From the NCBI GenBank assembly GCA_016185125.1, contig JACPOC010000025.1:1-64000 (forward strand): a stretch of 64,000 nucleotides of DNA, written 5' to 3'. Position 1 is the first letter of the stretch. Each line of letters starts with the position of its first letter. The notes below the pieces were generated by a model. That model was not told the origin of the DNA. It ran no database searches and saw only the letters and a program-made list of their open reading frames with translations. Made by a program: the position numbers and the translations under genes. Below are positions 5,664-56,333 of this stretch, piece after piece. This DNA comes from Bacteroidota bacterium. Lineage in GTDB: Bacteria > Bacteroidota > Bacteroidia > B-17B0 > Aurantibacillaceae.

Positions 5664-7225
5664 TATTCTTTTATTATCCAAGTGAAACTGCTTTTATTGT
5701 TGTAGTACAAAGTTACTATGTAAGAATCTTTTAGCAACTCTAAATCTTTGGTTTTAATTTGAAGTGTGTTTTTACCGGTTTTAAATTTTTTATTTTTAAT
5801 TATTACTTTTTCAAATCCCGCTTCAAGAGGCTTGGTTATTACAGCCGTTATTTCAACATCTTTTTTTGCATTAAATTTTATATTAATCTCTTCAGAAAAA
5901 TTAAACGTTTTTTCCAATTCAATTTCATTTTCTCCTTCCGTATAATTCTGAAGACTTTTTTCATCAATAATGGCCGTGTAAACGTTAAGTTCTTTTTTCT
6001 TATCACGCTGCATCCATATTGGCCTTACTGTGCTATTAACAACGCTTATACCCAGATAATTGCCAAACGTTTCATCTTTATTTGGCTTAAACGGTTTATT
6101 ATTAATTTTATAATAATCGAATTTTTGTCCGCCGTTTTTACTAAGAGCTAAATAAACATCCGTTAATCCATTTTCAAAATAATTTTTTTGATCGTAATAC
6201 AAAATATATAAATAACCGTTACTTTGATCAATGGTCATACAGGGCATAAATTGTTCTTTATGATTTGGATGATAGGTAACAAGGATGGGTTCGCTCCAAT
6301 TCTCCCCTTTATCATCACTGTAAATTAAAAATACATCTTTATTTTTTTCACCATTTTTTTCATCGCTCCAGCTAATGTATATTCTTCCCCGATGCGCGCT
6401 TTTACTCAGATCGCAAAACGTAAAGGGCAAACCATTTGCTTTATGAGTTCCATTTACTTTATAATCCCATCCGTTTTTTTGCGGAACAATAATTTTTTCT
6501 TTCGGCAGCCAGGTTGCACCGTCGTTCCAAGATTTTTGAAAAACAATACCTTGCGCCCCAGCCCAAGCAACGTACACATCTCCATCAGGGCCCACACATG
6601 GCACGGCGCCCATTAACGTACTGTCGCTATTACTGCAGTTTCCCGGAAGTAAACTTATTTTTTTTGGATCGGACCAACGCTTACCTCCATCTGTTGATTT
6701 CGAATAGCGAATAATGGAAGAATCTTTTATTAAGTTACTTTCAAATTTATTAAACTGCGTCCATGTTGCATGAAATACATTTGTTTTGGGATCTACATTT
6801 ACAAAATGCCTGTACTGAACTTTTTTTTCGTTCTTTCCAAAATCTTCGCAATTACTATACGTTTTCCCAAAATCATCTGACTTATTTAAAATAACGCGAT
6901 CTACCCAACTGCCATCCGTAAGCACGTTTGGATTTAAATAGGCGAGGTCGGTAAAAAAAGCTTTTTGCGCCGTATCCCAAAAAACCATAGGCTCTCCGAA
7001 TAAATTATAAGCTTCGCAAATACTACCATTTTTTTTCCAGGAAAGTCCCGAATCCTCGCTAAAATAAGCATTTGCCATTCCCGCCCCTGCTATCATTTGC
7101 TTTGTGTTTTTAGGATTAATAGCTATGGAAACACCTTTTGCCTCAAGCTGGCTGCTGATAAGAATATTTGCAAACTGAGAAAAGCCCACATTTGTAATAA
7201 ATATAAATATCAAGCTTAATTTCAT
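5663..7225 (-). CDS. Exported BNR/Asp-box beta-propeller (sialidase-like fold) protein
   Basis: 520 residues with a signal peptide MKLSLIFIFITNVGFSQ. At least five Asp boxes of the form SxDxGxxW are visible: SEDSGLSWKK, SDDFGKTYS, STDGGKRWSDP, WNDGATWLP and SDDKGENWSEP. These mark a six-bladed propeller like that of sialidases. The arginine triad and nucleophile tyrosine of true sialidases are not obvious, so enzymatic activity is unproven. The last 100 residues form a separate beta-rich domain ending TLYYNNKSSFTWIIKE, and no standard T9SS sorting motif is clear. It is the first gene of a coupled unit with the two downstream genes. Confidence 0.75.
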   Translation of the reverse strand: MKLSLIFIFITNVGFSQFANILISSQLEAKGVSIAINPKNTKQMIAGAGMANAYFSEDSGLSWKKNGSICEAYNLFGEPMVFWDTAQKAFFTDLAYLNPNVLTDGSWVDRVILNKSDDFGKTYSNCEDFGKNEKKVQYRHFVNVDPKTNVFHATWTQFNKFESNLIKDSSIIRYSKSTDGGKRWSDPKKISLLPGNCSNSDSTLMGAVPCVGPDGDVYVAWAGAQGIVFQKSWNDGATWLPKEKIIVPQKNGWDYKVNGTHKANGLPFTFCDLSKSAHRGRIYISWSDEKNGEKNKDVFLIYSDDKGENWSEPILVTYHPNHKEQFMPCMTIDQSNGYLYILYYDQKNYFENGLTDVYLALSKNGGQKFDYYKINNKPFKPNKDETFGNYLGISVVNSTVRPIWMQRDKKKELNVYTAIIDEKSLQNYTEGENEIELEKTFNFSEEINIKFNAKKDVEITAVITKPLEAGFEKVIIKNKKFKTGKNTLQIKTKDLELLKDSYIVTLYYNNKSSFTWIIKE

Positions 7226-7295
7226 TCATGTAAATTTAGTGAAAAGAAATAGTTATGAATGCTTAAAAAAGCTAAATTAGCTCCTGATTAAATTT

Positions 7296-8693
7296 ATGGA
7301 AAAAACTATTATTAACGCCTATATTGACCAAAACAAGGAGCGAATTTTAAATGAATTGCTTGAACTGTTAAAAATTCCTTCGGTGAGCGCGGACAGTAAA
7401 TACAAGAGCGATGTTTTAAAAACGGCGGAAGCAATTAAGAAACGGATACTGGAAGCAGGCGCCGACAAAGTAGAAGTGTCGCCCACCAAAGGATTTCCGG
7501 TTGTTTACGGAGAAAAAATAATTGACCCTAAAAAACCTACCATTTTAGTTTACGGACATTATGATGTTCAACCTGCGGATCCTTTAAATTTATGGCACTC
7601 TCCGCCCTTTGAACCTGTTATAAAAAAAACCGAGTTACATCCTGACGGAGCCATTTTCGCGCGCGGTTCATGCGATGATAAAGGGCAAATGTATATGCAC
7701 ATAAAAGCATTTGAACTGATGATGAAAACCAACACTTTGCCCTGTAACGTTAAGTTTATGATTGAAGGTGAAGAAGAGGTGGGTTCACCAAGTTTGGGTG
7801 AATGGATTATTAAGAATAAGGAAAAATTAAAAGCGGATGTAATTCTGATTTCAGACACCTCCATAATAGCTAACGATATTCCAAGCATTGATACGGGGCT
7901 TCGCGGGCTCGCTTACATGGAAGTAGAAGTTACAGGTGCTAACCGCGATCTTCACAGCGGTGTATATGGCGGCGGGGTGGCTAATCCCATCAATATTCTT
8001 TGCAAAATGATAGCGGGCTGTCATGATGAAAATAATCACATTACTATTCCAAATTTTTATGCAGATGTGATGGAACTTTCGGCATTAGAACGAAAAGAAT
8101 TAAACAAAGCGCCTTTTAATTTAGAAGCCTATAAAAAAGATCTTGGCATTGAAGACGTTTGGGGCGAAAAAGATTATAACAGCATTGAAAGAACGGGCGT
8201 TAGACCTACCTTAGATGTTAACGGCATTTGGGGAGGATATACCGGAGAAGGTGCTAAAACAGTTTTACCTTCAAAGGCTTTTGCGAAAATCAGCATGCGC
8301 CTTGTTCCTAATCAAAATTCAGAAAAGATTAGTAAAATTTTTCAAAAGCACTTTGAAACTACTGCTCCAAAATCAGTAAAAGTTTCAGTGAAGCCGCATC
8401 ATGGCGGAGAGCCTGTGGTAGTAAGTATTGATAGTCCGGGATACAAAGCAGCCAGTATGGCCATGGAACAAACTTATGGCAAAAAACCAGTGCCAACACG
8501 CGGAGGCGGAAGCATTCCTATTGTAGCTTTATTTAAAGAAGTTTTAGGTCTTGACAGTATTTTGTTTGGCTTTGGTTTAGATACTGATGCTTTGCATTCA
8601 CCCAACGAACATTATGGATTATTTAATTATTACAAAGGTATTGAAACCATACCATTATTTTACAAATATTATACTGAACTAACATCTAAATAA
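7296..8693 (+). CDS. M20-family metallopeptidase / dipeptidase
   Basis: 465 residues, the usual length for M20 dipeptidases of the carnosinase-like group (CNDP/DapE relatives). Metal-binding motifs are visible: VYGHYDVQPADP (HxD, near residue 90), RGSCDDKGQ with the bridging aspartate, and EGEEEVGS with the catalytic/ligand glutamate pair. The dimerisation insert carries GANRDLHSGVYGG, whose histidine reaches the partner active site in this family. The C-terminal ligand histidine is in LHSPNEHYG. It should cleave dipeptides or N-acyl amino acids in the cytoplasm with two divalent metals. The exact substrate cannot be read from sequence. The next gene begins after a one-base gap. Confidence 0.9.
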   Translation: MEKTIINAYIDQNKERILNELLELLKIPSVSADSKYKSDVLKTAEAIKKRILEAGADKVEVSPTKGFPVVYGEKIIDPKKPTILVYGHYDVQPADPLNLWHSPPFEPVIKKTELHPDGAIFARGSCDDKGQMYMHIKAFELMMKTNTLPCNVKFMIEGEEEVGSPSLGEWIIKNKEKLKADVILISDTSIIANDIPSIDTGLRGLAYMEVEVTGANRDLHSGVYGGGVANPINILCKMIAGCHDENNHITIPNFYADVMELSALERKELNKAPFNLEAYKKDLGIEDVWGEKDYNSIERTGVRPTLDVNGIWGGYTGEGAKTVLPSKAFAKISMRLVPNQNSEKISKIFQKHFETTAPKSVKVSVKPHHGGEPVVVSIDSPGYKAASMAMEQTYGKKPVPTRGGGSIPIVALFKEVLGLDSILFGFGLDTDALHSPNEHYGLFNYYKGIETIPLFYKYYTELTSK

Positions 8694-45736: not shown

Positions 45737-46852
45737 ATGAAGTTTGAAAATCAAAATATACTTATTGTTTCTAATGAGCCATGGGGGGAGCTCTGGTTTA
45801 CTAAACATAATTATGCTAATGAATTATCAAAAAGAAATAATGTCATTTTTATTAATTCACCTTTCAAGTGGAAACCACAAAATATTTTTAAAAATAAAAT
45901 TAAAAAAGAAAAAGAAAAAGAAAATTTTTCAGTTCTATCAATCCAAAATTATCTTCCGGCCTTAAATACTTACTTTATAGCGTTTAATAATTTTATTGCA
46001 ACAAAAAGATTAAGAAAGTTTTTAAAAAGAAATAAATATAATGATTATATTTTATGGTCTTTTACCCCTCTATTTCTCTATAATCCAAAATTACTAAAGT
46101 GTAAATTAAGTATTTTTCATGTGGCTGATTTGCATTGGACTAAATTCCATGGCACAGATATTTTGAGTACCAACGCGGATTTTTTATTTTTTATTTCGAA
46201 GCATATATTACCTGAGTATAGTTTTACAAATAAACCTAAATTAATTCTTCATCATGGGATTTCTAGTGAAGAATATGAATTTGATAGTGCTATTGAAGCT
46301 AAAATTAAAGAGGAATTAATTTCTTATGGAAAATTTGGTCTTTTCATTGGCTCAATTGATAACCGATTAAATTTTGATTTAATTTACAAAATGTCTCAAA
46401 AATTTCAAAAAGTTAATTTTCTTTTTGTTGGACCTATTAAGGTAGAAACAACCCACAATTATTATCATTTGTTTAAAGCAACCGTCAATATTTATAATTT
46501 AGGTATAAAACCATATAAGATTCTTAAATATTATATCCAGAAAAGTCATTTCTGCATATCGCCCATGGACATTAATTACCCGGGTAATGACATTTCACAT
46601 CATAAAACTATTTCATACTTAGCTCAGGGAAAACCAATATTCAGTCCTGTTTTTAAAGAATATTTAAGTTTCGAGAACTTACTTTATATGAATAATTCTG
46701 ATGAGATACTTTTAAACTCACTTGATCAGTTTTTGAAAAATGGAGAAGATGATAGCTTATATACTAAAAGAATAGACCTATCTAAATATTTTTTATTTGA
46801 GAAACATATTGAAAGGGCAGAAAATTATATAAATGAAATATTTAAGGGATAA
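45737..46852 (+). CDS. Glycosyltransferase, TuaH-like
   Basis: 371 residues. The N-terminus ILIVSNEPWGELWFTKHNYA and the segment LSIFHVADLHWTKFHG resemble the TuaH group, which has a GT-B fold and is found in teichuronic acid and O-antigen loci. FGLFIGSIDNRLNFDLIYKM begins the second Rossmann domain, and HKTISYLAQGKPIFSPVF is the donor-binding region. The glutamate pair typical of classic GT4 enzymes is not clear. A run of three AAAAAG units at about 45902-45923 encodes KKEKEKE, a site where slippage would change length without shifting frame. It is very AT-rich, more so than genes outside the locus. Confidence 0.75.
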   Translation: MKFENQNILIVSNEPWGELWFTKHNYANELSKRNNVIFINSPFKWKPQNIFKNKIKKEKEKENFSVLSIQNYLPALNTYFIAFNNFIATKRLRKFLKRNKYNDYILWSFTPLFLYNPKLLKCKLSIFHVADLHWTKFHGTDILSTNADFLFFISKHILPEYSFTNKPKLILHHGISSEEYEFDSAIEAKIKEELISYGKFGLFIGSIDNRLNFDLIYKMSQKFQKVNFLFVGPIKVETTHNYYHLFKATVNIYNLGIKPYKILKYYIQKSHFCISPMDINYPGNDISHHKTISYLAQGKPIFSPVFKEYLSFENLLYMNNSDEILLNSLDQFLKNGEDDSLYTKRIDLSKYFLFEKHIERAENYINEIFKG

Positions 46853-46855
46853 TCT

Positions 46856-47977
46856 ATGATACATGTAACATGGATCCTTGCAAATAATAGTTCAGCCCCC
46901 TATTTTAATTGGTTCGCAGAAATAGCTGCCAAAAAGAAAGAAATGGAGTTTAGTGTGGTTTGTTTATATAAAGATCCACCAGAAATGATTGAGGATCTGA
47001 AAAAGTTCGGCATTAAATGTTATTGGATCAAATATGATTATAACAAAAGAAAAACAGGCATTTTCAAAAGTACAATCGCTTTATATTTTCTTTTCAAAAA
47101 AATTAAGCCCACCGTTATTCACTCTCATTTGTTTGATGATTCTCTTGCAGCATTAATCGCAGGAAAAATCGCAGGAATTAAACATAGAGTAATTACAAAA
47201 GGGGACGCCGGCTTTCACTACTTGTACACGCCTCAATGGGTAATATTTGATAAATTCAATAATTACATGGCAACTAGAATAGTAACGATTTCCTCAGAGA
47301 ATAAAACGTTCATATTAGAAAAGGAACGCGCCGATCCTTCCAAGGTTGTGGTCATTCATCATGGGCTACCTCTTTTGCAAATTACATCACAATTCGAAAA
47401 TTATAAAAACGAGTTTAGGGAACTATGGCAATTAGAAAACAAAATTGTTATTGGTACGCTAAGCCGCTTTATAGAATGGAAGGGCTATAAAAAAATAGTG
47501 AACGCGGTTGAAATACTGATCCAGACCCATCCAAAATTATTATTTTTATTTACGGGAGCCGGCCCGCAAAAATACGAGATAGAAAAAAGTGTAAAAGAAA
47601 AAGGGCTTGAAAAGCATATTGTATTTACGAACTGGATTAACCCGAAAAAAATACCATCTTTATTTGGAGTCATGGACATTTACTTACATGCCGCGGAAAA
47701 TGAACCCTTTGGGTTGGTAATAGCAGAAGCAATGCTTAACGGAGTGCCTGTGGTATCAACAAGCACAGGCGCGGCCGCCGATGCGATCAAACACAAAAAA
47801 AACGGGTATCTTTGCAGCCCTGCAAGTGCTTTAGAATTAGCTGGAGGTGTGAAATACATATTACAACATAATTTAAACAATTGTATCGGCGCTGCGGGTA
47901 AGGAAACTGCAGAACAATTATTTTCGATTGAAAGAATGTATTCAAACCATATTGCTTTATATAAACAACAATTATGA
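46856..47977 (+). CDS. Family 4 glycosyltransferase
   Basis: 373 residues with a GT-B fold. The acceptor-side domain holds VIHSHLFDDSLAALIAGKIA. The donor-side domain has TLSRFIEWKGYKKIVNAVEI, FLFTGAGPQKYEIEKSV and the E-x7-E motif ENEPFGLVIAEAM, followed by GVPVVSTSTGAAADAI. These are full GT4 hallmarks, so it should be an active retaining glycosyltransferase. Donor unknown. It starts 3 bp after the TuaH-like gene, and its stop overlaps the next start as ATGA. Confidence 0.9.
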   Translation: MIHVTWILANNSSAPYFNWFAEIAAKKKEMEFSVVCLYKDPPEMIEDLKKFGIKCYWIKYDYNKRKTGIFKSTIALYFLFKKIKPTVIHSHLFDDSLAALIAGKIAGIKHRVITKGDAGFHYLYTPQWVIFDKFNNYMATRIVTISSENKTFILEKERADPSKVVVIHHGLPLLQITSQFENYKNEFRELWQLENKIVIGTLSRFIEWKGYKKIVNAVEILIQTHPKLLFLFTGAGPQKYEIEKSVKEKGLEKHIVFTNWINPKKIPSLFGVMDIYLHAAENEPFGLVIAEAMLNGVPVVSTSTGAAADAIKHKKNGYLCSPASALELAGGVKYILQHNLNNCIGAAGKETAEQLFSIERMYSNHIALYKQQL

Positions 47978-48303
47978 ATTTGAAATCTGTCATAAAGCAT
48001 TTATATAATAAACTCCCTTTTAAAAAGGAATTTTTTTCTTTCATTAAATTTTTTATTGTTCCTCCAAAAAGCCTCTATCAGCATCTTTATTTTAAGGGGG
48101 TTTTTAATGTAAAAATAGACCATGCAACTAAATTCAAAATGCATCACCTTAGTTTTATTGTAGAGAACGAAATATTTTGGGAAGGACTTTATAATGGATG
48201 GAAAAAAAAGTCTATCAGAAAGACTGATAAAATCTCTAAAAGCGATCATTGGAATTTTTTGCTGTGTAATAAACAAAAAGCTTTACAGTTAAACCTGTTA
48301 TGA
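47974..48303 (+). pseudogene. FkbM-type methyltransferase remnant lacking its catalytic core
   Basis: 109 residues. The first 75 (LPFKKEFFSFIKFF, LYFKGVFNVKID, FIVENEIFWEGLYNGWKKKS) read like the N-terminal segment of FkbM-family methyltransferases, just upstream of where the SAM motif (DIGANxG) should come. Instead the chain jumps to SDHWNFLLCNKQKALQLNLL, which looks like a family C-terminus. So about 150 residues of core appear to be missing without loss of frame. An A8 run lies near the join (about 48203). The gene keeps 4-bp ATGA overlaps with both neighbours. It cannot bind SAM as it stands. It may be a dead gene kept for translational coupling, or a small protein with a new use. Confidence 0.65.
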
Positions 48304-49163
48304 CTCCTGAAACATCCATCATAGTTCCCCTTTTCAATGCTCAATCTTATATTGATGAAACAATTCTATCTGTCTTAAAGCAAGAGTATATCAACTGGGA
48401 ACTAATTATTGTGGATGACGGCTCTGTAGATAAGAGTGCTGATAAGGTAAACGCCTACCTTTACGATACAAGAATTAAGTATTGTTACCAAACCAATCAA
48501 GGAGTTTCTTCGGCCAGAAATCATGGTCTGATCAAAGCGAAAGGCAAGTATGTTGCGTTTTTAGATGCCGATGATGTGTGGTTACCCGATAACTTAAAAG
48601 AAAAAATCGCTGTTCTTGAGAACCGAGATGTGGACTGGGTTTTCAGCGACATGGGATTAATCGGGCGCGACTCTGTTTTTACGGGGACCATCCAGCGTGG
48701 CACCGATATCGATATTTTATCTCACTATTTGTTATGGGATCGACCCGTTGTTCCCGGGCCTTGCAGTAATATCGTTATTAAAAAAAAGTGCTTCGAGGGC
48801 GGTCTGAAATTCGACACTTCTTTTTCAACTGCTGCCGATCAGGATTTCTGTTTTAACTTAAGTTCAAAATATAAAGGAAAAAGAATACCAAAACCGCTAT
48901 GGAATTACAGGGTTCTTGAGCAGAGCATGAGTAGGAATGTAAACGTGATGGAGAAAGACCATATAGCTGTGTATAGAAAAGCCGCCAAGAACCAGCTGTT
49001 CAAAACAGAAAAATTCAGAAGACAATGTTTTTCTAATTTATATTTAATCCTGGCAGGAAGTTGGTGGAAGGATGGCAAAAATAAACCCAGAGCCATTTAC
49101 TTTATATTATCGGCGGCAGCAACATTCCCGCCTAATGTCACTAAAATTTTAAAAAAAATATGA
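48300..49163 (+). CDS. Family 2 glycosyltransferase
   Basis: 287 residues, GT-A fold. Motifs: SIIVPLFNAQSYIDETILSV, ELIIVDDGSVDKS, SSARNHGLIKAKGKYVAFLD and FLDADDVWLPDN with the DxD, then DQDFCFNLS in the catalytic-base region. The start overlaps the FkbM remnant stop by 4 bp and its own stop overlaps the next start (49160). Substrates unknown. It acts at the cytoplasmic face on lipid-linked glycan. Confidence 0.9.
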   Translation: MTPETSIIVPLFNAQSYIDETILSVLKQEYINWELIIVDDGSVDKSADKVNAYLYDTRIKYCYQTNQGVSSARNHGLIKAKGKYVAFLDADDVWLPDNLKEKIAVLENRDVDWVFSDMGLIGRDSVFTGTIQRGTDIDILSHYLLWDRPVVPGPCSNIVIKKKCFEGGLKFDTSFSTAADQDFCFNLSSKYKGKRIPKPLWNYRVLEQSMSRNVNVMEKDHIAVYRKAAKNQLFKTEKFRRQCFSNLYLILAGSWWKDGKNKPRAIYFILSAAATFPPNVTKILKKI

Positions 49164-50416
49164 GTGGCCCGATTCATAATATTTTGGTTATTACCAGTTG
49201 GAGTTTTAACGACGCCCTTATTCAAACTTATACCTTGCCTTACCTTCTTCTTATTAAGAAAAATTTATCGTCCCAAAGCAAAATTTTTCTTTATACACAG
49301 TCTCAGTATACACCTAAAACAAATATTGATGTTTACCAACAACAAAAAGAGGAACTTAAAAAGCAAAATATTTTTATAATTGAAAATAAATATAAACCTT
49401 TTGGTTTTCTCGCGCTGTTTAGCTACGTTGTTGTATTTTTTAGACTTTGGCATTTTTGCATCTCAAATAAAATTACCGTTTTACATACCTGGTGCACACC
49501 AGCCGGCGGAATGGGCTATCTTCTCGCGCGTGTTACAAATATTAAACTGATTCTCGACAGCTTCGAGCCTCACGCATTGCCAATGGTAGAAACAAACACC
49601 TGGTCACAAAATAGTTTTGCATTTAAACTCTTATCCTGGTTAGAAAAAAAACAATTACAAGGAGCTTCAGAGGTAATCTGTACTACTGAAGGAATGATAG
49701 AAAATTCAAAGCAAAAATACGGCGTAATTAAAAAAAGGTATTTTATAAAACCTGCATGTGTTGACCTGAATCACTTTTCAGTACAGAAAATAAAGAATCC
49801 TCTTTTAATAAAAGAATTCAATCTCGAAAATAAAATAACATGTGTTTATGCCGGCAAATTTGGCGGCCTGTATTTAAAACACGAGACTTTCGACTTTTTT
49901 AAATGTGCCTATGATTATTGGGGAGAGAAATTTAGAATTCTCCTTCTTACAAGTCATACGGACAAAGAGATTCAATCTTATTTAGAGTCAGCCGGGCTAC
50001 CCAATCATATTTTGATAAAAAAATTTGTGCCTTTTAAAGAAGTGGCTGAATATATGGGGTTGGCCGACTTTGCTATCTGTCCTACCCGGCCTGGGAAGTC
50101 GAGAAAGTATTGCACCCCCATAAAAACCGGGGAATATTGGGCAATGAGCCTGCCTGTGGTGATTACAAAAGACATTTCTACCGATTCGGATATTATTAAA
50201 CGATATGGGATAGGCAGCGTGTTAGAAGAGTTAAATGCAGAAGCCTATTTAAATGCCGTAAAAAGTATTGATGAGATTCTTACTAACGGTACACGCATGG
50301 ATATCTTTCATAAAATCAGGCCTATTGCCGAGAAATACAGAAATTTCGACATTGCCGACCAAATTTACCAAACGCTATACGGAAATACAGATATTAATGC
50401 CGCCGATAATTATTAA
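49160..50416 (+). CDS. Family 4-like glycosyltransferase
   Basis: 418 residues, GT-B fold. The first half has ILVITSWSFNDALIQTYTLP and TVLHTWCTPAGGMGYLLARV, and ILDSFEPHALPMVE. The second half shows KITCVYAGKFGGLYLKHETF, LLTSHTDKEIQSYLE, and FAICPTRPGKSRKYCTPIKT followed by EYWAMSLPVVIT, where the family's donor-binding EG...E is replaced by PTRPGKSRKYCTPIKTGEY. This is a divergent but recognisable group found in O-antigen loci. It overlaps the upstream GT2 gene by 4 bp and is the last intact gene before the remnant at 50424. Confidence 0.8.
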   Translation: MSGPIHNILVITSWSFNDALIQTYTLPYLLLIKKNLSSQSKIFLYTQSQYTPKTNIDVYQQQKEELKKQNIFIIENKYKPFGFLALFSYVVVFFRLWHFCISNKITVLHTWCTPAGGMGYLLARVTNIKLILDSFEPHALPMVETNTWSQNSFAFKLLSWLEKKQLQGASEVICTTEGMIENSKQKYGVIKKRYFIKPACVDLNHFSVQKIKNPLLIKEFNLENKITCVYAGKFGGLYLKHETFDFFKCAYDYWGEKFRILLLTSHTDKEIQSYLESAGLPNHILIKKFVPFKEVAEYMGLADFAICPTRPGKSRKYCTPIKTGEYWAMSLPVVITKDISTDSDIIKRYGIGSVLEELNAEAYLNAVKSIDEILTNGTRMDIFHKIRPIAEKYRNFDIADQIYQTLYGNTDINAADNY

Positions 50417-50671: not shown

Positions 50672-50895
50672 TAACACCTTCAAAAAATAAAGCAGCTCCT
50701 TCACGTTTCAGTTGCATTAACGCAAGTATTAATGAAACAAATATTACCAATTCTAAAGAGGTAATACGAGAGAAATACGAATTAAGCTTATTTTAAAATT
50801 TTAAAAAAAATAAATAAAGAGTTGATTTCAACCCATTATAATTTCTCTGGATTTCTGGAGGATTTCTAATGTTTCTTTATTATCTTTGCCCCCAC

Positions 50896-51048
50896 ATGAA
50901 AGATCTCATTACTCTATACATTGATCCGGGAACAGGTAGTCTTTTAGTTCAGGTTATTGTTGGGGGCATTGTTGCAGGCAGCTTGTTTTTTAAAAAAACA
51001 TTGGGATCTTTTTTAAATATATTCAAACGGAAAAGCGATAAATCGTGA
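50896..51048 (+). CDS. Small 50-residue membrane protein with YIDPGTGS motif
   Basis: Reads MKDLITLYIDPGTGSLLVQV, then IVGGIVAGSLFFKKTLGSFL and NIFKRKSDKS before TGA. It has a hydrophilic start with the phrase YIDPGTGSLLVQ, one membrane helix (about 16-32) and a basic tail. I recall similar short YIDPGTGS proteins beside methyltransferase and sulfatase-type genes in other bacteria, without known function. Its stop overlaps the GTG start of the methyltransferase as GTGA, so the two are translationally coupled. The conserved-looking motif and the coupling argue that this is a real gene despite its size. Confidence 0.75.
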   Translation: MKDLITLYIDPGTGSLLVQVIVGGIVAGSLFFKKTLGSFLNIFKRKSDKS

Positions 51049-52427
51049 CGCCCGCAAATCCCTCTTCTTTCAAAGATCCTGATGGCTCAATCATTTACAA
51101 AGACGGTTCTCTTTTTAGATTAATTTCGCAAACGTATAAAGGCCATTATAATACGTTAATTACATCAGGACTTTATAAAGAATTATCAGAGGCTCACATG
51201 CTGATCAATCACGAAGAAGTTGATCCTATTAATTTTAATACAGAATATAAAAATATTTACAAAGTACTTAAGCCGCAACTAATTCCCTTTATTTCTTATC
51301 CTTATGAATGGAGTTTCATGCAATTAAAAGCTGCGGCTTTGCTTACTCTCGACATTCAACTGAAAGCTCTTGAAAAAAACATGTGGCTAAAAGACGCTAA
51401 TTGTTCCAATATACAGTTTATCGGCGTGGATCCAATTTTTATAGACACGTCTTCTTTTGAAAATTATTCTGAAAATTCTCCGTGGCCCGCTTATGGCCAA
51501 TTTTGCAGGCATTTTTTAGGTCCCTTGTTATTATTCGCATACAAAAAACCGGAACTTTCTAATCTGTCGATTGCGTATTCGGATGGCATTCCCTTAAATA
51601 TAGTTTCGTACAGCCTACCTTCAAGAACGAAACTTAATTTTTTCATTTTCCTGCATATTCATTATCATGCAACTCTTGAAATGAAGTTTAATAGAGATGT
51701 GTCTTTCAGAAAAAAAAAGTTAATGCTAAGCAAAAGCAGGCTTATCGCATTAATTACGCATTTAAAAAGCGGAATACAAAAGTTGGATATTAAAATCGAT
51801 AAATCTGAATGGTCTGACTATTACAAAACATTTTCTTATAGCAACGAAAATTATAGTCAGAAACAAAAAGCAGTACTCTCCTTTATCGAGTCTGCTCATC
51901 CAAATATCTTATTGGATATGGGTTGTAACGAAGGTGAGTTTTCTCTTCTTTGCTCCCAAAAAGTAAAATACATTATAGCTACTGATTCAGATGCTGTGGT
52001 TGTAAACAACCTTGCCAAGAAACTATCTCACCTTAAAATAAAAAATATTTTGCCGTTAGCCGTTAACATGGCTCACCCAACTCCCGGAATAGGACTGTTC
52101 AATAAAGAGCACACCTCCTTTATCGAACGCGCCAGCTTTGACGCGATTCTTGCGTTGGCACTCATACATCACTTGGCGATAGGCCATAACATTCCTTTTG
52201 AATTAATTGCCGAACAGTTTGCGGCTTGGGCTCCGCAACTATTAATTGAGTTTGTTCCCAAAGAAGATTCTCAGGTTCAAAAATTATTAATTACCAAAAA
52301 AGACATTTATTCGCTATATACACAGGAACATTTTTTAAGGAGTTTTAATTTTTTCTACCGGATAAAAGAGCAATACCCGCTTGATAATTCAGGGAGAATT
52401 TTGTTTTGGATGGAAACTCATGCGTAA
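51045..52427 (+). CDS. NoeA-like class I SAM-dependent methyltransferase
   Basis: 460 residues from GTG at 51045. The N-terminal 270 residues (FKDPDGSIIYKDGSLFRLI, EWSFMQLKAAALLTLDIQL, LKDANCSNIQFIGVDPIFID) form an extra domain, slightly kinase-like in LKDANCSNIQF, seen in relatives of nodulation protein NoeA. The SAM domain follows at about 285: LLDMGCNEGEFSLLCSQ, IIATDSDAVVV and FDAILALALIHHL. NoeA methylates a sugar of the rhizobial Nod factor; here a lipid-linked glycan or polyprenyl substrate is plausible. It is coupled to the 50-residue protein upstream and overlaps the sulfatase-like gene by 8 bp. Confidence 0.85.
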   Translation: MTPANPSSFKDPDGSIIYKDGSLFRLISQTYKGHYNTLITSGLYKELSEAHMLINHEEVDPINFNTEYKNIYKVLKPQLIPFISYPYEWSFMQLKAAALLTLDIQLKALEKNMWLKDANCSNIQFIGVDPIFIDTSSFENYSENSPWPAYGQFCRHFLGPLLLFAYKKPELSNLSIAYSDGIPLNIVSYSLPSRTKLNFFIFLHIHYHATLEMKFNRDVSFRKKKLMLSKSRLIALITHLKSGIQKLDIKIDKSEWSDYYKTFSYSNENYSQKQKAVLSFIESAHPNILLDMGCNEGEFSLLCSQKVKYIIATDSDAVVVNNLAKKLSHLKIKNILPLAVNMAHPTPGIGLFNKEHTSFIERASFDAILALALIHHLAIGHNIPFELIAEQFAAWAPQLLIEFVPKEDSQVQKLLITKKDIYSLYTQEHFLRSFNFFYRIKEQYPLDNSGRILFWMETHA

Positions 52428-53877
52428 ATTTTTAAATAATTTTCCTCTTCACACTTTTCTTTTTATTTTCTTGATCTCCCTTTTCCTTTTTGCGCATAAT
52501 TACGGGCAGGTTGAAATTTTTATGATGAAGAGAACACTTGTGGTTGGCAGTGCAATCTCACTACTTCTATTCGCTATTCTCTACTTTTTCATTCGCAACA
52601 GGGTTAAGTCCGGAATTATAAGTACACTCCTTTTACTTTTACTTTTTAATTACGGAGTTTTGTACGACATGCTTGAAAACTTGTATTTCTCTGGTTATTG
52701 GCCTTTTAAAAATATACACCGTTACTTGACGGGTTCTACAATCTTAGCTTTTATTCTAATTATTTATATTATTCAAAAAAGAGTAAAAACCGGCTTTAAA
52801 ATAAATTATTTCCTAAACATCCTTGTACTGCTATTAATTCTTTTTAATATAACCAAGATTGTATATCTTAAAAGTAAACTCGTGACCACGCCTTTAGCTA
52901 ATAACGACAAAGTAACATCCGTAATTACCACAGACTCTTTGCCTAACTTGTATTTCATTATTCTTGACGGATACGCAAACCAACATATACTTAAAGAACA
53001 ATATAACTATGATAATTCTGAATTCATGGGGTTTCTTAAAAATAAACGGTTCTTTATAGCCGATAGTTCAATTGCCAACTATTACTCTACACCGCCTTCT
53101 TTAGCCGCCACGTTAAACATGGAATATCTTCCGGTGTTGTCGGGTGCGCAAATCAGGGCACTTGTATTAAACAATAAAATCCTTTCAGTTTTAAAAAACA
53201 ACGGTTACACCCTGTATAATTTACAATCAGGATATTCAGTTACCAATGGCTTTTCGCAGATCGATTCCACTATTGTTATAAACGGGCCCAACGAATTTGA
53301 AAGGGGCATTTTAAAATTTACCATTTTCAGGTTGGATGATCTTCTTGGAATGATACAGCATTTGAGATTAAAAAGCCAATTCGAAAAGCTGACTGATGTA
53401 GCCAATATTAAAAATAATAAAAAATTCACTTTTGTGCACATTGTCGCACCACATCCGCCTTTTGTTTTCAACAGTAAAGGTGAACATGTTTATAACGACA
53501 AACACTCTGATAACTCGTGGGAACCTAAAAAAAATTACATTGAACAATTGAAATATGTGAATAAAAAAGTAGAACCATTCATTTCACAAATAATAAAAAA
53601 TGATCCTAGCGGGATTATAATACTTCAATCGGATCATGGCCCATGGATCCAATCTAAAAACGAAAAAGAAGTTTTTGAAGCCCGCTCGATGATTTTAAAT
53701 GCAGTTCGTTATCCCGGAATTAATAACAGCACTTTTAAAAAATCGGCGAGTTCAGTTAACACTTTCAGATTTTTTATAAAACAGTATATTGATTCTACAT
53801 TTAAGTTATTGAAAGACAGTGCGGCCGGGAAAGAATATATCCTGCAAAACAGATTATTCATTGACCGCGTAAAATAA
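52420..53877 (+). CDS. Membrane-anchored sulfatase/alkaline phosphatase superfamily protein
   Basis: 485 residues from ATG at 52420; an earlier in-frame start would lengthen it by 13 residues into the upstream gene without adding conserved sequence. Five hydrophobic segments fill the first 150 residues. The C-terminal domain has the superfamily's metal sites: YFIILDGYAN (first Asp), IANYYSTPPSLAATLNM (nucleophile Ser/Thr region), HIVAPHPPF and LQSDHGPW (Asp-His). The layout resembles LtaS- or EptA-type transferases, which move phosphoglycerol or phosphoethanolamine from lipids to glycans on the outer face of the inner membrane. The substrate is unknown. The gene is convergent with the next gene, 7 bp apart. 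Confidence 0.8.
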   Translation: MRKFLNNFPLHTFLFIFLISLFLFAHNYGQVEIFMMKRTLVVGSAISLLLFAILYFFIRNRVKSGIISTLLLLLLFNYGVLYDMLENLYFSGYWPFKNIHRYLTGSTILAFILIIYIIQKRVKTGFKINYFLNILVLLLILFNITKIVYLKSKLVTTPLANNDKVTSVITTDSLPNLYFIILDGYANQHILKEQYNYDNSEFMGFLKNKRFFIADSSIANYYSTPPSLAATLNMEYLPVLSGAQIRALVLNNKILSVLKNNGYTLYNLQSGYSVTNGFSQIDSTIVINGPNEFERGILKFTIFRLDDLLGMIQHLRLKSQFEKLTDVANIKNNKKFTFVHIVAPHPPFVFNSKGEHVYNDKHSDNSWEPKKNYIEQLKYVNKKVEPFISQIIKNDPSGIIILQSDHGPWIQSKNEKEVFEARSMILNAVRYPGINNSTFKKSASSVNTFRFFIKQYIDSTFKLLKDSAAGKEYILQNRLFIDRVK

Positions 53878-53884
53878 AGAACAC

Positions 53885-55231
53885 TTATCTTCTCTTGAAA
53901 CTTTCTTTATTTAAATAATACAAAATAAATAGCGAGGAAATATAAAAAGGGATACAAGGTATTTTGAGCCTGGCTAAAGCCCCGTAATTTGCAGTTGTTA
54001 ACCCAACGGAAAAAGCAAAGAACAGCGCAAATAAAAAGGAGAATATAAGTAAAGGGTTACTAAATAGTGACGTAAAGAGGGTGGAAAATTTCACTTTGAA
54101 TAATATATATAAACTAAACCCAAGCATAAATAAGTTTTCTAGACCGGATAATAACATTACCGGGTTTCTAGCATCCCAAATATATGGTCTGAAAAATGCC
54201 ATGTTTAAAGCGGCAGGAATTTTAGAAGCAATGCCTCCAATAGTTGGCTCAAATACTCCAATATTATAACTATTGCCTCCGTACTGTACTTCTCTGATTA
54301 GATCCTGCTGAGTTTTAACCGCTTTATTAAGAATGTTATCCAAATTGTATTCCCCTAAATATTGGCCAAGATATTGCAGAGAAAACATGATGACACCTAT
54401 CAGACTAAGAAGTAAAAAAGGTACTACCATAACCTTAAAAATTTTGTTTTTCATTTTATTTAAACGCGAAAAAAAGATCCAAATTAAAGAGCCAGGCAAT
54501 AACGCAAAGAAAAAATAGGGTTTAACAAAAACAAAAATTAAAACCGGGAAGATAATCTGTAGCAAATACTTTATATTTCTCATTTTTAAAATCTGAAACC
54601 GGTACAATCCAAATACAAAAAAACCGATCGCACTTAAGGCATAAGTGTCTTTTAATATTCCGGAGCCCCAAAAAAACACTGACGGGATAAAAAAAATTGC
54701 GATAGCAAATTGTCTAGTCAGGCTCGGAAATTGATCTATAAAAACCAAGTATAACTTCCACATTCCAATAAAACTAACGCAACACAGTAAAATAGTTGTA
54801 CAAATAAACGATTTGCAACCTAATATGCAGAATGGAATAATAAGAGTAACAGTGAATAATGCATAGTAATCACTCGAACTGAATTGAATACTATCATATA
54901 TATTGTTTGATCCAAGAGTAGATGAAATATTATGGTTTTTATAATCAAGCATTTCAAAAAACTTTCTTAAATCTCCATCGTATAAAACATTCACAAAAGC
55001 ATTTGCAGAGATAAAGTAGTTGGTAACATCTCCACCAACTGTATAATAGTATGTGTAAACTAAGCACAAGCTTATTCCACCGATGAATTTGCACATTAGG
55101 CCTGGAACGAGATATTTATAATAAGGTTTTTGCCTTATGTATCTATTTGAAATATTTCGCGCGAAAAAAAAAGCTATAGCAAGGTAGAAGGGTGCTAACA
55201 ATAAATCAAAAATATCTACTGGTGAATCCAT
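53885..55231 (-). CDS. Polytopic membrane protein, possible polysaccharide polymerase
   Basis: 448 residues with about ten to eleven hydrophobic segments. A long periplasmic-type loop lies at about 300-345 (NKAVKTQQDLIREVQYGGNS). The segments IFFIPSVFFWGSGILKDTYA and FVKPYFFFALLPGSLIWIFF carry arginine/lysine-poor membrane helices with a conserved-looking WGSGILKD phrase. Position in the locus and topology suggest a Wzy-type polymerase or a GT-C-like transferase, but no family signature proves it. If it is the polymerase, it would link repeat units delivered by the flippase. It lies 94 bp downstream of the deacetylase gene on the same strand. Confidence 0.6.
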   Translation of the reverse strand: MDSPVDIFDLLLAPFYLAIAFFFARNISNRYIRQKPYYKYLVPGLMCKFIGGISLCLVYTYYYTVGGDVTNYFISANAFVNVLYDGDLRKFFEMLDYKNHNISSTLGSNNIYDSIQFSSSDYYALFTVTLIIPFCILGCKSFICTTILLCCVSFIGMWKLYLVFIDQFPSLTRQFAIAIFFIPSVFFWGSGILKDTYALSAIGFFVFGLYRFQILKMRNIKYLLQIIFPVLIFVFVKPYFFFALLPGSLIWIFFSRLNKMKNKIFKVMVVPFLLLSLIGVIMFSLQYLGQYLGEYNLDNILNKAVKTQQDLIREVQYGGNSYNIGVFEPTIGGIASKIPAALNMAFFRPYIWDARNPVMLLSGLENLFMLGFSLYILFKVKFSTLFTSLFSNPLLIFSFLFALFFAFSVGLTTANYGALARLKIPCIPFYISSLFILYYLNKESFKRR

Positions 55232-55325: not shown

Positions 55326-56333
55326 TTATGCATTTAATAAGCCTAACATCCGGGCGTGAAAACCATTTATCAGAAAGAATACTTCTTCAGCAGACGAATG
55401 ATGAACGCTATAACGATGAAGATTATAAATATACTCGGGATCAACCTTTAATTTATCTAAATCAACAGACCTGTTCATTCCGGTAAAACACAATTTATAA
55501 TATTTTTTTGCTTGATCTATGGCCAACCGATTACTTTTTCCAAATGGAAAGGCGAAATAAATAACCTTCCTGTTTACTTCTTTTTCAAGAAATATCTTTG
55601 ATTGGTTAAGTTCTTTTTCAATGAATTTCAAATCCGTTTCATCTTCAAAGCTTGGATGCGTGAAGCCATGGGACGCCACGCTGACAATTTCAGCATCCAA
55701 ATGTTTTATTTCGTCTAAAGAGAGTAATTCTTCCGGTAGAATTTTCTGATCCTTTGTAAGCTTATCCATTAATTCATTAATTAACATCAACCTATCATTT
55801 TGCGGAAGTTTGCATAAGCTTTTTGTTATGGACAGATTTAGCTCAAAAGCGTTCACCGAATTATATGAAATTTCATATTTGTAAAAATTAAAAAAAGCAA
55901 TTATTTCCTTCAAACTATAATTCTTTACAAAAAAGGAGATTGTTGAAGTCCAGATATGTCCCTTGTTTTCGGCATTCGGAGGAAGCGCAAACAACGTGGA
56001 ATGAATATTGTGTTTTTTCATTATCGGATAAGCGTATTGCAGATAATCTTTATAACCGTCGTCAAAAGTAATAAAACAAGCGTTTTTAAGTTCATCAACC
56101 TAAGCAGTTAATAACGCGTTAAGAGGCAGGATTTTATAATGTTGTTTTAACATTATAATTATTTTTTCAAATAATTCGGGATGTACTCCCGGCCAAACGT
56201 TATCGTACTCAGGTATTATTTTATGAAATACCAAAATAGGTATCCGCAAATTCTGTCTGTTTTTATTTAATAACAATTTACCTATACCAAGGTTATATAA
56301 AAATTTGAATAACAAAGCTCTTCCGCAAGCCAT
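55326..56333 (-). pseudogene. Polysaccharide deacetylase (NodB fold) interrupted by one in-frame TAG
   Basis: The two halves lie in one frame: residues 1-77 (from ATG 56333, MACGRALLFKFLYNLGIGKL...ILVFHKIIP), then TAG at 56100-56102, then VDELKNACFITFDDGYKDY and on to the stop at 55326, 336 codons in all. TFDDG (codons 89-93) is the catalytic/metal motif 1 and SHGFTHPSF is motif 2. The upstream fragment has no catalytic motif, and the internal ATG at 56021 begins after TFDDG, so neither piece alone could deacetylate. Other genes here end in TAG (folE), so TAG is not reassigned. It is either a fresh nonsense mutation or a site of suppression. The remaining codons show no other defect. Confidence 0.85.

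Follow-up and report, generated by a model that had tools for sequence, protein, structure and literature searches.

A three-gene module lies in the window, that is, the whole 64,000-nucleotide stretch of Bacteroidota bacterium DNA analysed here (contig JACPOC010000025.1), and comprises a gene for a small single-span membrane protein with a YxDPGxGS motif, a homologue of the rhizobial gene noeA, and a gene for a NoeB-like membrane protein of the alkaline-phosphatase superfamily. The small gene is paired with noeA far beyond chance, and the pair points to a widespread, little-studied machinery modifying cell-surface sugars. As it recurs from Bacteroidota to Chloroflexota and in a methanogen, its elucidation would concern a widely distributed change to the cell envelope and a protein family without a model in the libraries searched. 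The module is tentatively explained, with a confidence slightly below even, as an envelope-glycan modification unit of the noeA–noeB type with a dedicated small membrane subunit and a predicted WbdD-like mechanism. To what is known of such units the present analysis adds the recognition of the small protein and of its wide distribution, a second kind of partner for it, and a putative WbdD-type His-His-Arg phosphate site in the NoeA methyltransferase.

The first-pass annotation, made from the letters of the window, described the three genes as linked by overlaps, and these are confirmed to the base: the small gene and the NoeA-homologue gene share 4 bp (GTGA, whose GTG is the start codon of the NoeA homologue), and the latter overlaps the third gene by 8 bp. 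The YIDPGTGS motif, the single hydrophobic segment and the basic tail ascribed to the small protein are likewise present. The proposal that the three genes form a module was borne out by the surveys described below, which show it to be conserved.

A species-wide scan (one genome per species, nine NoeA queries) gave at least 576 relatives, of which the best 80 loci were kept, so that distant NoeA proteins are under-represented. The record titles of the NoeA loci name Bacteroidetes, Chloroflexi, Aminicenantes, Zixibacteria, Omnitrophota, Patescibacteria, and Methanoculleus. The small gene was found in 75 of the 80 loci (model E <= 1e-7), immediately upstream of noeA in 65, just downstream in 6, upstream at 1.0–1.7 kb in 3, and on the opposite strand in 1; it is also present in the Methanoculleus locus (L102). 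Motif-bearing frames of the same loci had served as seed for this model; with a second one, made solely from 9 small proteins not belonging to the 80 loci, these 75 were again recovered at E <= 0.01 (74 at 1e-5), and the exact string [YF]xDPG[ST]G alone occurs in 58/80. As for the five loci lacking the small gene, one (L062) has a copy ca. 6 kb away and another (L083) elsewhere in the genome, while the remaining three (L091, L094, and L104) start 49, 265, and 305 bases ahead of noeA. The third gene has a relative in 59 of the 80 loci, immediately downstream on the same strand in 36, otherwise adjacent in 17, and farther off in 6.

The same association is seen in whole genomes grouped by phylum (the names Bacteroidota, Chloroflexota, and Nitrospirota being read from the named loci that led to those genomes). 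The scans with the 46-position model of the small protein scored no more than 24 candidates per genome in many cases, so misses are possible. Among 60 relative genomes NoeA is encoded in 5, and the small protein (E <= 1.5e-4) in the same 5, adjacent to it. The 296 genomes of the window's own phylum contain NoeA in 10 cases, 9 of them with the small gene (8 within ca. 120 bases; in G309 it lies ca. 1.7 kb from noeA, with a sulfatase-like gene between them). The small protein (E <= 0.01) was detected there at 11 places, and the two without NoeA are partial matches (E ca. 0.0085). In the phylum of Longilinea (G371), represented by 201 genomes, NoeA occurs in 32 and the small gene accompanies it in 30; the other two are G503 and G495, the latter having just a weak YVDPTAGG version directly before noeA (E 7.5e-4). 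One noeA copy in the survey is interrupted by a stop (G470). The small protein (E <= 0.001) was found at 34 places in this phylum, 31 of them near NoeA (29 within ca. 240 bases, two at 1.1 and 2.3 kb). In 35 genomes or records selected for NoeA the small protein was found at 42 places, 34 of them no farther than ca. 2 kb from NoeA; of the other eight, one is 6 kb off, two (E ca. 0.007) look like chance matches, and the rest have other contexts. Homologues of the small protein scattered without the neighbouring genes, which would have spoken against a module, are thus limited to a few exceptions (3/34 places in the Longilinea phylum lack NoeA), and the converse case, NoeA with no small gene detected, to two divergent NoeA genes (G278 and G503).

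The trio could be merely a co-transferred operon of surface-polysaccharide islands, the small protein having no direct functional link to the enzymes. Its patchy presence is consistent with this: of 37 genomes searched in the window's genus, 3 encode NoeA (the window's own genome counted). On the other hand, the small gene is nearly one-to-one with NoeA in two phyla, and the genes remain neighbours in a variety of orders and, in two loci checked, beside a topoisomerase I gene. Such varying gene orders argue against hitch-hiking alone, and we regard co-transfer without a functional link as very improbable. Separately from these surveys, three IMG/VR viral contigs (L116, L117, and L118) were found to carry a NoeA homologue, the small gene, and a sulfatase-like gene, which may be viral cargo or misassigned host DNA.

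The small protein of the window has one hydrophobic segment, with the best 19-residue mean hydropathy of 1.99 at residues 14–32, followed by the basic tail. The motif is the most conserved region of the family: in an alignment of 67 members Y1, S8, and Q12 are invariant, and D3, P4, G5, and G7 are conserved in at least 90%. Pfam, NCBIfam, PHROGs, and PADLOC contain no model matching the window protein, and comparison of the 67 members with NCBIfam and Pfam gave sporadic hits only, each involving one or two of the proteins (best E 0.0052). No description of the small protein was found in the open-access main texts searched. A viral scan gave 48 pattern matches, none of which was confirmed, and the loci collected contain no small protein fused to either NoeA or the third enzyme.

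Family statistics were compiled for 85 small proteins (L001, L029, L030, L034, L035, and the second L046 copy were left out). The 20 residues following the span are net positive in 76/85. Two N-terminal designs are found: window-type proteins have just a few residues N-terminal of the motif, and 50/85 small proteins carry a signal-peptidase-like triplet directly before the motif tyrosine (the strict [AV]xA form in 37/85). By the established topology rules applied to both designs, the motif should probably lie on the outer face of the membrane and the basic tail on the inner face, and the small protein is best read as a two-sided membrane adaptor. The cleavage-like site, together with the motif being the most conserved part, would also fit a small protein from which signal-peptide cleavage releases a mature YLDPGTGS form, this form being itself the substrate modified or displayed. 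Such a role is very improbable: the motif would sit outside and NoeA in the cytosol, the small protein retains its hydrophobic span and tail, and 35/85 members have no cleavage-like site. An unusual relative (L052:4174-4974) has a YLDPSSGS motif and, in the same frame, a long acidic tail whose end, with two CxxC pairs, may form a zinc ribbon.

As judged by gene adjacency, the small-protein family appears to have two kinds of partner. All three NoeA-less places in the 201 Longilinea-phylum genomes are near genes of the alkaline-phosphatase superfamily. A YIDPNTGG version stands directly before a PF01663 phosphodiesterase gene in two loci (L168 and L169); in L170 a sulfatase-like gene lies on the other strand ca. 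0.4 kb from the motif. Apart from these three places, the small gene directly precedes a sulfatase-like gene in L172. Two tandem pairs of a YIDPNTGG gene and a sulfatase-like gene are located 4–6 kb from a NoeA gene in L171 (6247-10664), and L178 (1689-7578) has the order sulfatase-like–small–sulfatase-like–small–NoeA; the repeated pairs in both look like duplication of a two-gene unit. An extra copy near a contig end in L177 has neither NoeA nor a sulfatase-like gene in the 6 kb examined. A model of the variant small proteins gave nine matches in 148 genomes of the phylum of the Nitrospirota locus, five next to NoeA and four adjoining a sulfatase-like gene, NoeA being absent from the 3 kb examined; two of these four are the L171 copies from which the model was built. 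In the 201 Longilinea-phylum genomes the same model marked 20 places, comprising G407 and G367:C9 again, both G578 copies, one partial match (G416, in an 801-residue frame), and otherwise places already found beside NoeA. A PF01663-type enzyme model applied to loci L001–L005 and L029–L118 gave one partial match only, at the end of L040. In L169, a small-protein locus without NoeA, a sulfotransferase-like gene (6972-7637) lies between the phosphodiesterase and sulfatase-like genes.

These adjacencies (L168, L169, L171, L172, and L178, and the four of nine variant matches, with the reservation made above for the L171 pair) are what would be expected if the small protein belonged first of all to alkaline-phosphatase-superfamily membrane enzymes, as their subunit or regulator, binding their extracytoplasmic domain with its outward motif, and if its tie to NoeA were secondary. 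Nevertheless, 18 of the 20 NoeA loci with no such enzyme in reach retain the small gene, which follows NoeA (75/80) better than the third gene does (59/80). A primary role with these enzymes is considered rather unlikely.

The NoeA homologue of the window aligns with S. meliloti NoeA at 30.5% identity, covering 98% of the query (E 1e-45), and its structure model has a pLDDT of 92.9. Its initial description as a NoeA-like methyltransferase was correct but incomplete, as the N-terminal half is a kinase (PMC9758233). In the NoeA/Lani_1194 family, reported in 2022, an N-terminal kinase with Arg, Asp, Asn, and Asp in atypical motifs is joined to a methyltransferase, which is kept in 94% of about two thousand homologues (PMC9758233). 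An alignment of the window protein with 73 of the 83 NoeA proteins of loci L036–L118 (n = 74) has R25, D117, N122, and D134 in all 74 sequences; R25 was equated with the published catalytic Arg (the K72 equivalent) by its position in the N-lobe, without a shared alignment. The kinase half is thus assigned by its invariant residues and the published family. No kinase appears in the structural match list of the whole protein, which is filled by the methyltransferase and so has no bearing on the kinase fold.

Residues 251–460 match the class I SAM methyltransferase fold, with D291, G293, N295, and G297 in 74/74 sequences. H375 and H376 (74/74) and R451 (74/74) align with H132, H133, and R203 of WbdD from E. 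coli HS, each of which is needed for phosphate methylation (PMC3482155). The likeness of the methyltransferase half to WbdD is seen both in profiles (hhalign probability 95.7%) and in structure (Z 16.8, rmsd 3.0, 186 aligned residues), and the top structural match is a methylphosphate capping enzyme (Z 18.5, rmsd 2.7, 184 aligned). The conserved His-His-Arg site leads to a concrete prediction, i.e., that NoeA phosphorylates a glycan and then methylates that phosphate, leaving a methyl phosphate on the glycan. No clear membrane span was found in the NoeA homologue, the best hydropathy window (1.48) lying in the methyltransferase core. A PADLOC mad2 match (E 2.7e-5) covers just methyltransferase residues 272–384 and was taken as generic.

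The third protein matches Pfam PF00884 (E 2.6e-9), its hydrophobic stretches fall within residues 4–152, and its structure model (pLDDT 89.5) is closest to EptC and EptA, with MCR-1 at rank 7, LtaS at rank 19, and many sulfatases between. The family alignment comprises 40 of 44 listed relatives (E < 1e-90) and the window protein, so the residue counts lean to close relatives; T224 is present in 40/41 sequences (Ser in one), D183 in 40, H340, H345, and D405 in 41/41, and H406 in 36. By analogy with the superfamily, T224 is the likely nucleophile and the other residues are putative metal ligands, and the protein is likely to possess an alkaline-phosphatase-type active site with a threonine nucleophile. 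Of the two affinities suggested at first, that with LtaS and EptA is therefore the better supported, and the name sulfatase is rejected, as the formylglycine-type signature [CS]xPSR is found in 0/41 relatives. EptA/EptC, MCR-1, and LtaS share with the third protein both the membrane helices and the Thr-nucleophile domain, though its identity to EptC, EptA, MCR-1, and LtaS in the alignments is just 11–13%.

The closest described counterpart of the module is found on pSymA of S. meliloti, where nodL is followed by a gene for a 71-aa 'hypothetical protein', noeA, and noeB, the last three in the same order as the trio of the window. A translated plasmid search with the small protein gave a match at the start of noeA (E 2–5, weak alone). 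The 71-aa protein carries YLDPGTGSMLVQ (YLDPGTGS) after a signal-peptide-like segment ending in AHA, and in pairwise comparison it is 33% identical to the window protein over 45 residues (E 4e-8). Both NoeB and the third protein match PF00884, with weak direct similarity (a single pairwise alignment spans 130 residues at 22%, E 3e-5). The nodL–noeA–noeB genes are reportedly a host-range operon of Sinorhizobium meliloti, said to have been described by Ardourel in 1995. Unlike in S. meliloti, the trio of the window follows glycosyltransferase genes with no nodL ahead. The same trio stands after nodL in Rhizobium sp. T1473 and Ensifer canadensis, and beside polysaccharide genes, with a degenerate YLDAASAS motif, in Novosphingobium sp. 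PP1Y.

In published passages noeA and noeB code for host-range proteins thought to modify Nod factor, NoeA being from alfalfa-nodulating bacteria. The Lani_1194 system resembles that of the window in combining a kinase with a class I methyltransferase and having a NoeB-type neighbour of the alkaline-phosphatase fold, and the neighbours Lani_1193 and Lani_1195 were retained in 65% and 38% of the neighbourhoods compared (n = 816; PMC9758233). The section of that paper on the family does not identify Lani_1193; by gene order, it would probably be the small YxDPGxGS protein. Neither the match to the phosphate site of WbdD nor small-protein relatives with other enzymes appear in its passages on the family. 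The designation of the module as an unnamed system is correct in part, noeA–noeB and the conserved neighbours being already in print; the small protein is a third component of the noeA–noeB unit for which no description was found in the literature searched.

WbdD of E. coli O9/O9a, like NoeA, has a kinase and a methyltransferase in one chain. It has in addition a C-terminal coiled-coil and membrane-recruiting region, which brings its partner mannosyltransferase to the membrane (PMC3482155), whereas NoeA ends with the methyltransferase at residue 460. A noeA–noeB-type unit with a WbdD-like mechanism, in which co-occurrence, gene order, domain content, active-site residues, and probable topology are computed and from which we infer the substrate, the order of reactions, and every protein contact, would act as follows. 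The kinase domain of the cytosolic NoeA homologue would phosphorylate a sugar of a lipid-linked surface glycan, and the methyltransferase domain would methylate that phosphate, as WbdD does. The small protein may supply the membrane contact of NoeA in trans, its basic tail holding NoeA at the inner face, as suggested by the recruiting C-terminus of WbdD and the end of NoeA at its methyltransferase. The outer-face YxDPGxGSxxxQ motif may contact either the carrier of the glycan or the alkaline-phosphatase-superfamily enzyme; that enzyme would then add or trim a phospho-group. Anchoring of NoeA by the small protein, suggested earlier, is plausible, but it is complicated by the topology, which probably places the motif outside, on the side opposite to cytosolic NoeA, and by those small relatives that pair with alkaline-phosphatase-superfamily genes where NoeA is not adjacent.

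Several observations weigh against the WbdD-like unit. No relative of the third enzyme is in reach in 20/80 NoeA loci, and one further locus has no room for it. The small gene was not detected with two divergent NoeA genes, that of G278 (10 kb examined; the protein is whole but divergent, with E 9e-48 to a NoeA model made in this analysis, and matched model positions 4–164 in the phylum scan) and that of G503. Some small-protein relatives pair with alkaline-phosphatase-superfamily genes with no NoeA alongside, and in two Chloroflexota loci the neighbour is topoisomerase I (L049:2688-4835 and L070:2492-4798), directly followed by the small gene and noeA. As to the enzyme itself, the order of kinase and methyltransferase is reversed relative to WbdD, where the methyltransferase comes first, the kinase half has no profile similarity to the WbdD kinase (hhalign probability 0.1%), and WbdD Y16 aligns to a gap, with the invariant NoeA Y259 nearby. 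The N-methyltransferase NodS is the second structural match (Z 18.4, above WbdD); with such near ties, phosphate methylation is not distinguished by rank alone.

A broader proposal, which we consider doubtful, is that YxDPGxGS proteins form a large family of two-sided adaptors that would couple cytosolic NoeA to extracytoplasmic alkaline-phosphatase-superfamily enzymes, so that methyl-phosphate-capped surface glycans are made or processed in at least one methanogen as well as in numerous bacterial phyla. In rhizobia, the unit would have been taken over as the noeA/noeB host-range genes, its third partner being overlooked.

The features of the locus are listed in Table 1. The genes upstream of the trio give it the context of a polysaccharide cluster.

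Table 1. Features of the module and its surroundings in the window
Feature	Position	Strand	Basis
Small single-span membrane protein gene, YIDPGTGSLLVQ motif, 50 aa	50896..51048	+	Sequence and family alignment
NoeA homologue, GTG start, 460 aa: kinase ca. 1-250, class I methyltransferase ca. 250-460	51045..52427	+	Similarity to S. meliloti noeA
NoeB-like membrane protein, 485 aa: N-terminal membrane helices and alkaline-phosphatase-superfamily domain	52420..53877	+	PF00884
TATCTTTG, possible Bacteroidota-type -7 promoter box	50881..50888	+	7 bases before ATG 50896
Glycosyltransferase genes upstream	46856-47977, 48300-49163, 49160-50416	+	Pfam, NCBIfam
Weakly TuaH-like gene upstream	45737-46852	+	Pfam, NCBIfam

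The small gene, present in a single copy in the window's own genome, has an alternative start at ATG 50869, which would give a 59-aa protein and is preceded by GGAGGA 6 bases ahead. In the two nearest relatives (L181 and L182) the gene starts with GTG 7 and 9 codons before the motif tyrosine, and a TAnnTTTR box, a putative Bacteroidota promoter element, lies 6 and 3 bases, respectively, before that GTG. These start positions and the similar box ahead of 50896 support the latter start better, and the longer form appears less likely. Downstream, two genes on the minus strand converge on the module, one coding for a 448-aa protein without a Pfam match (53885-55231) and the other for a polysaccharide deacetylase (55326-56021).

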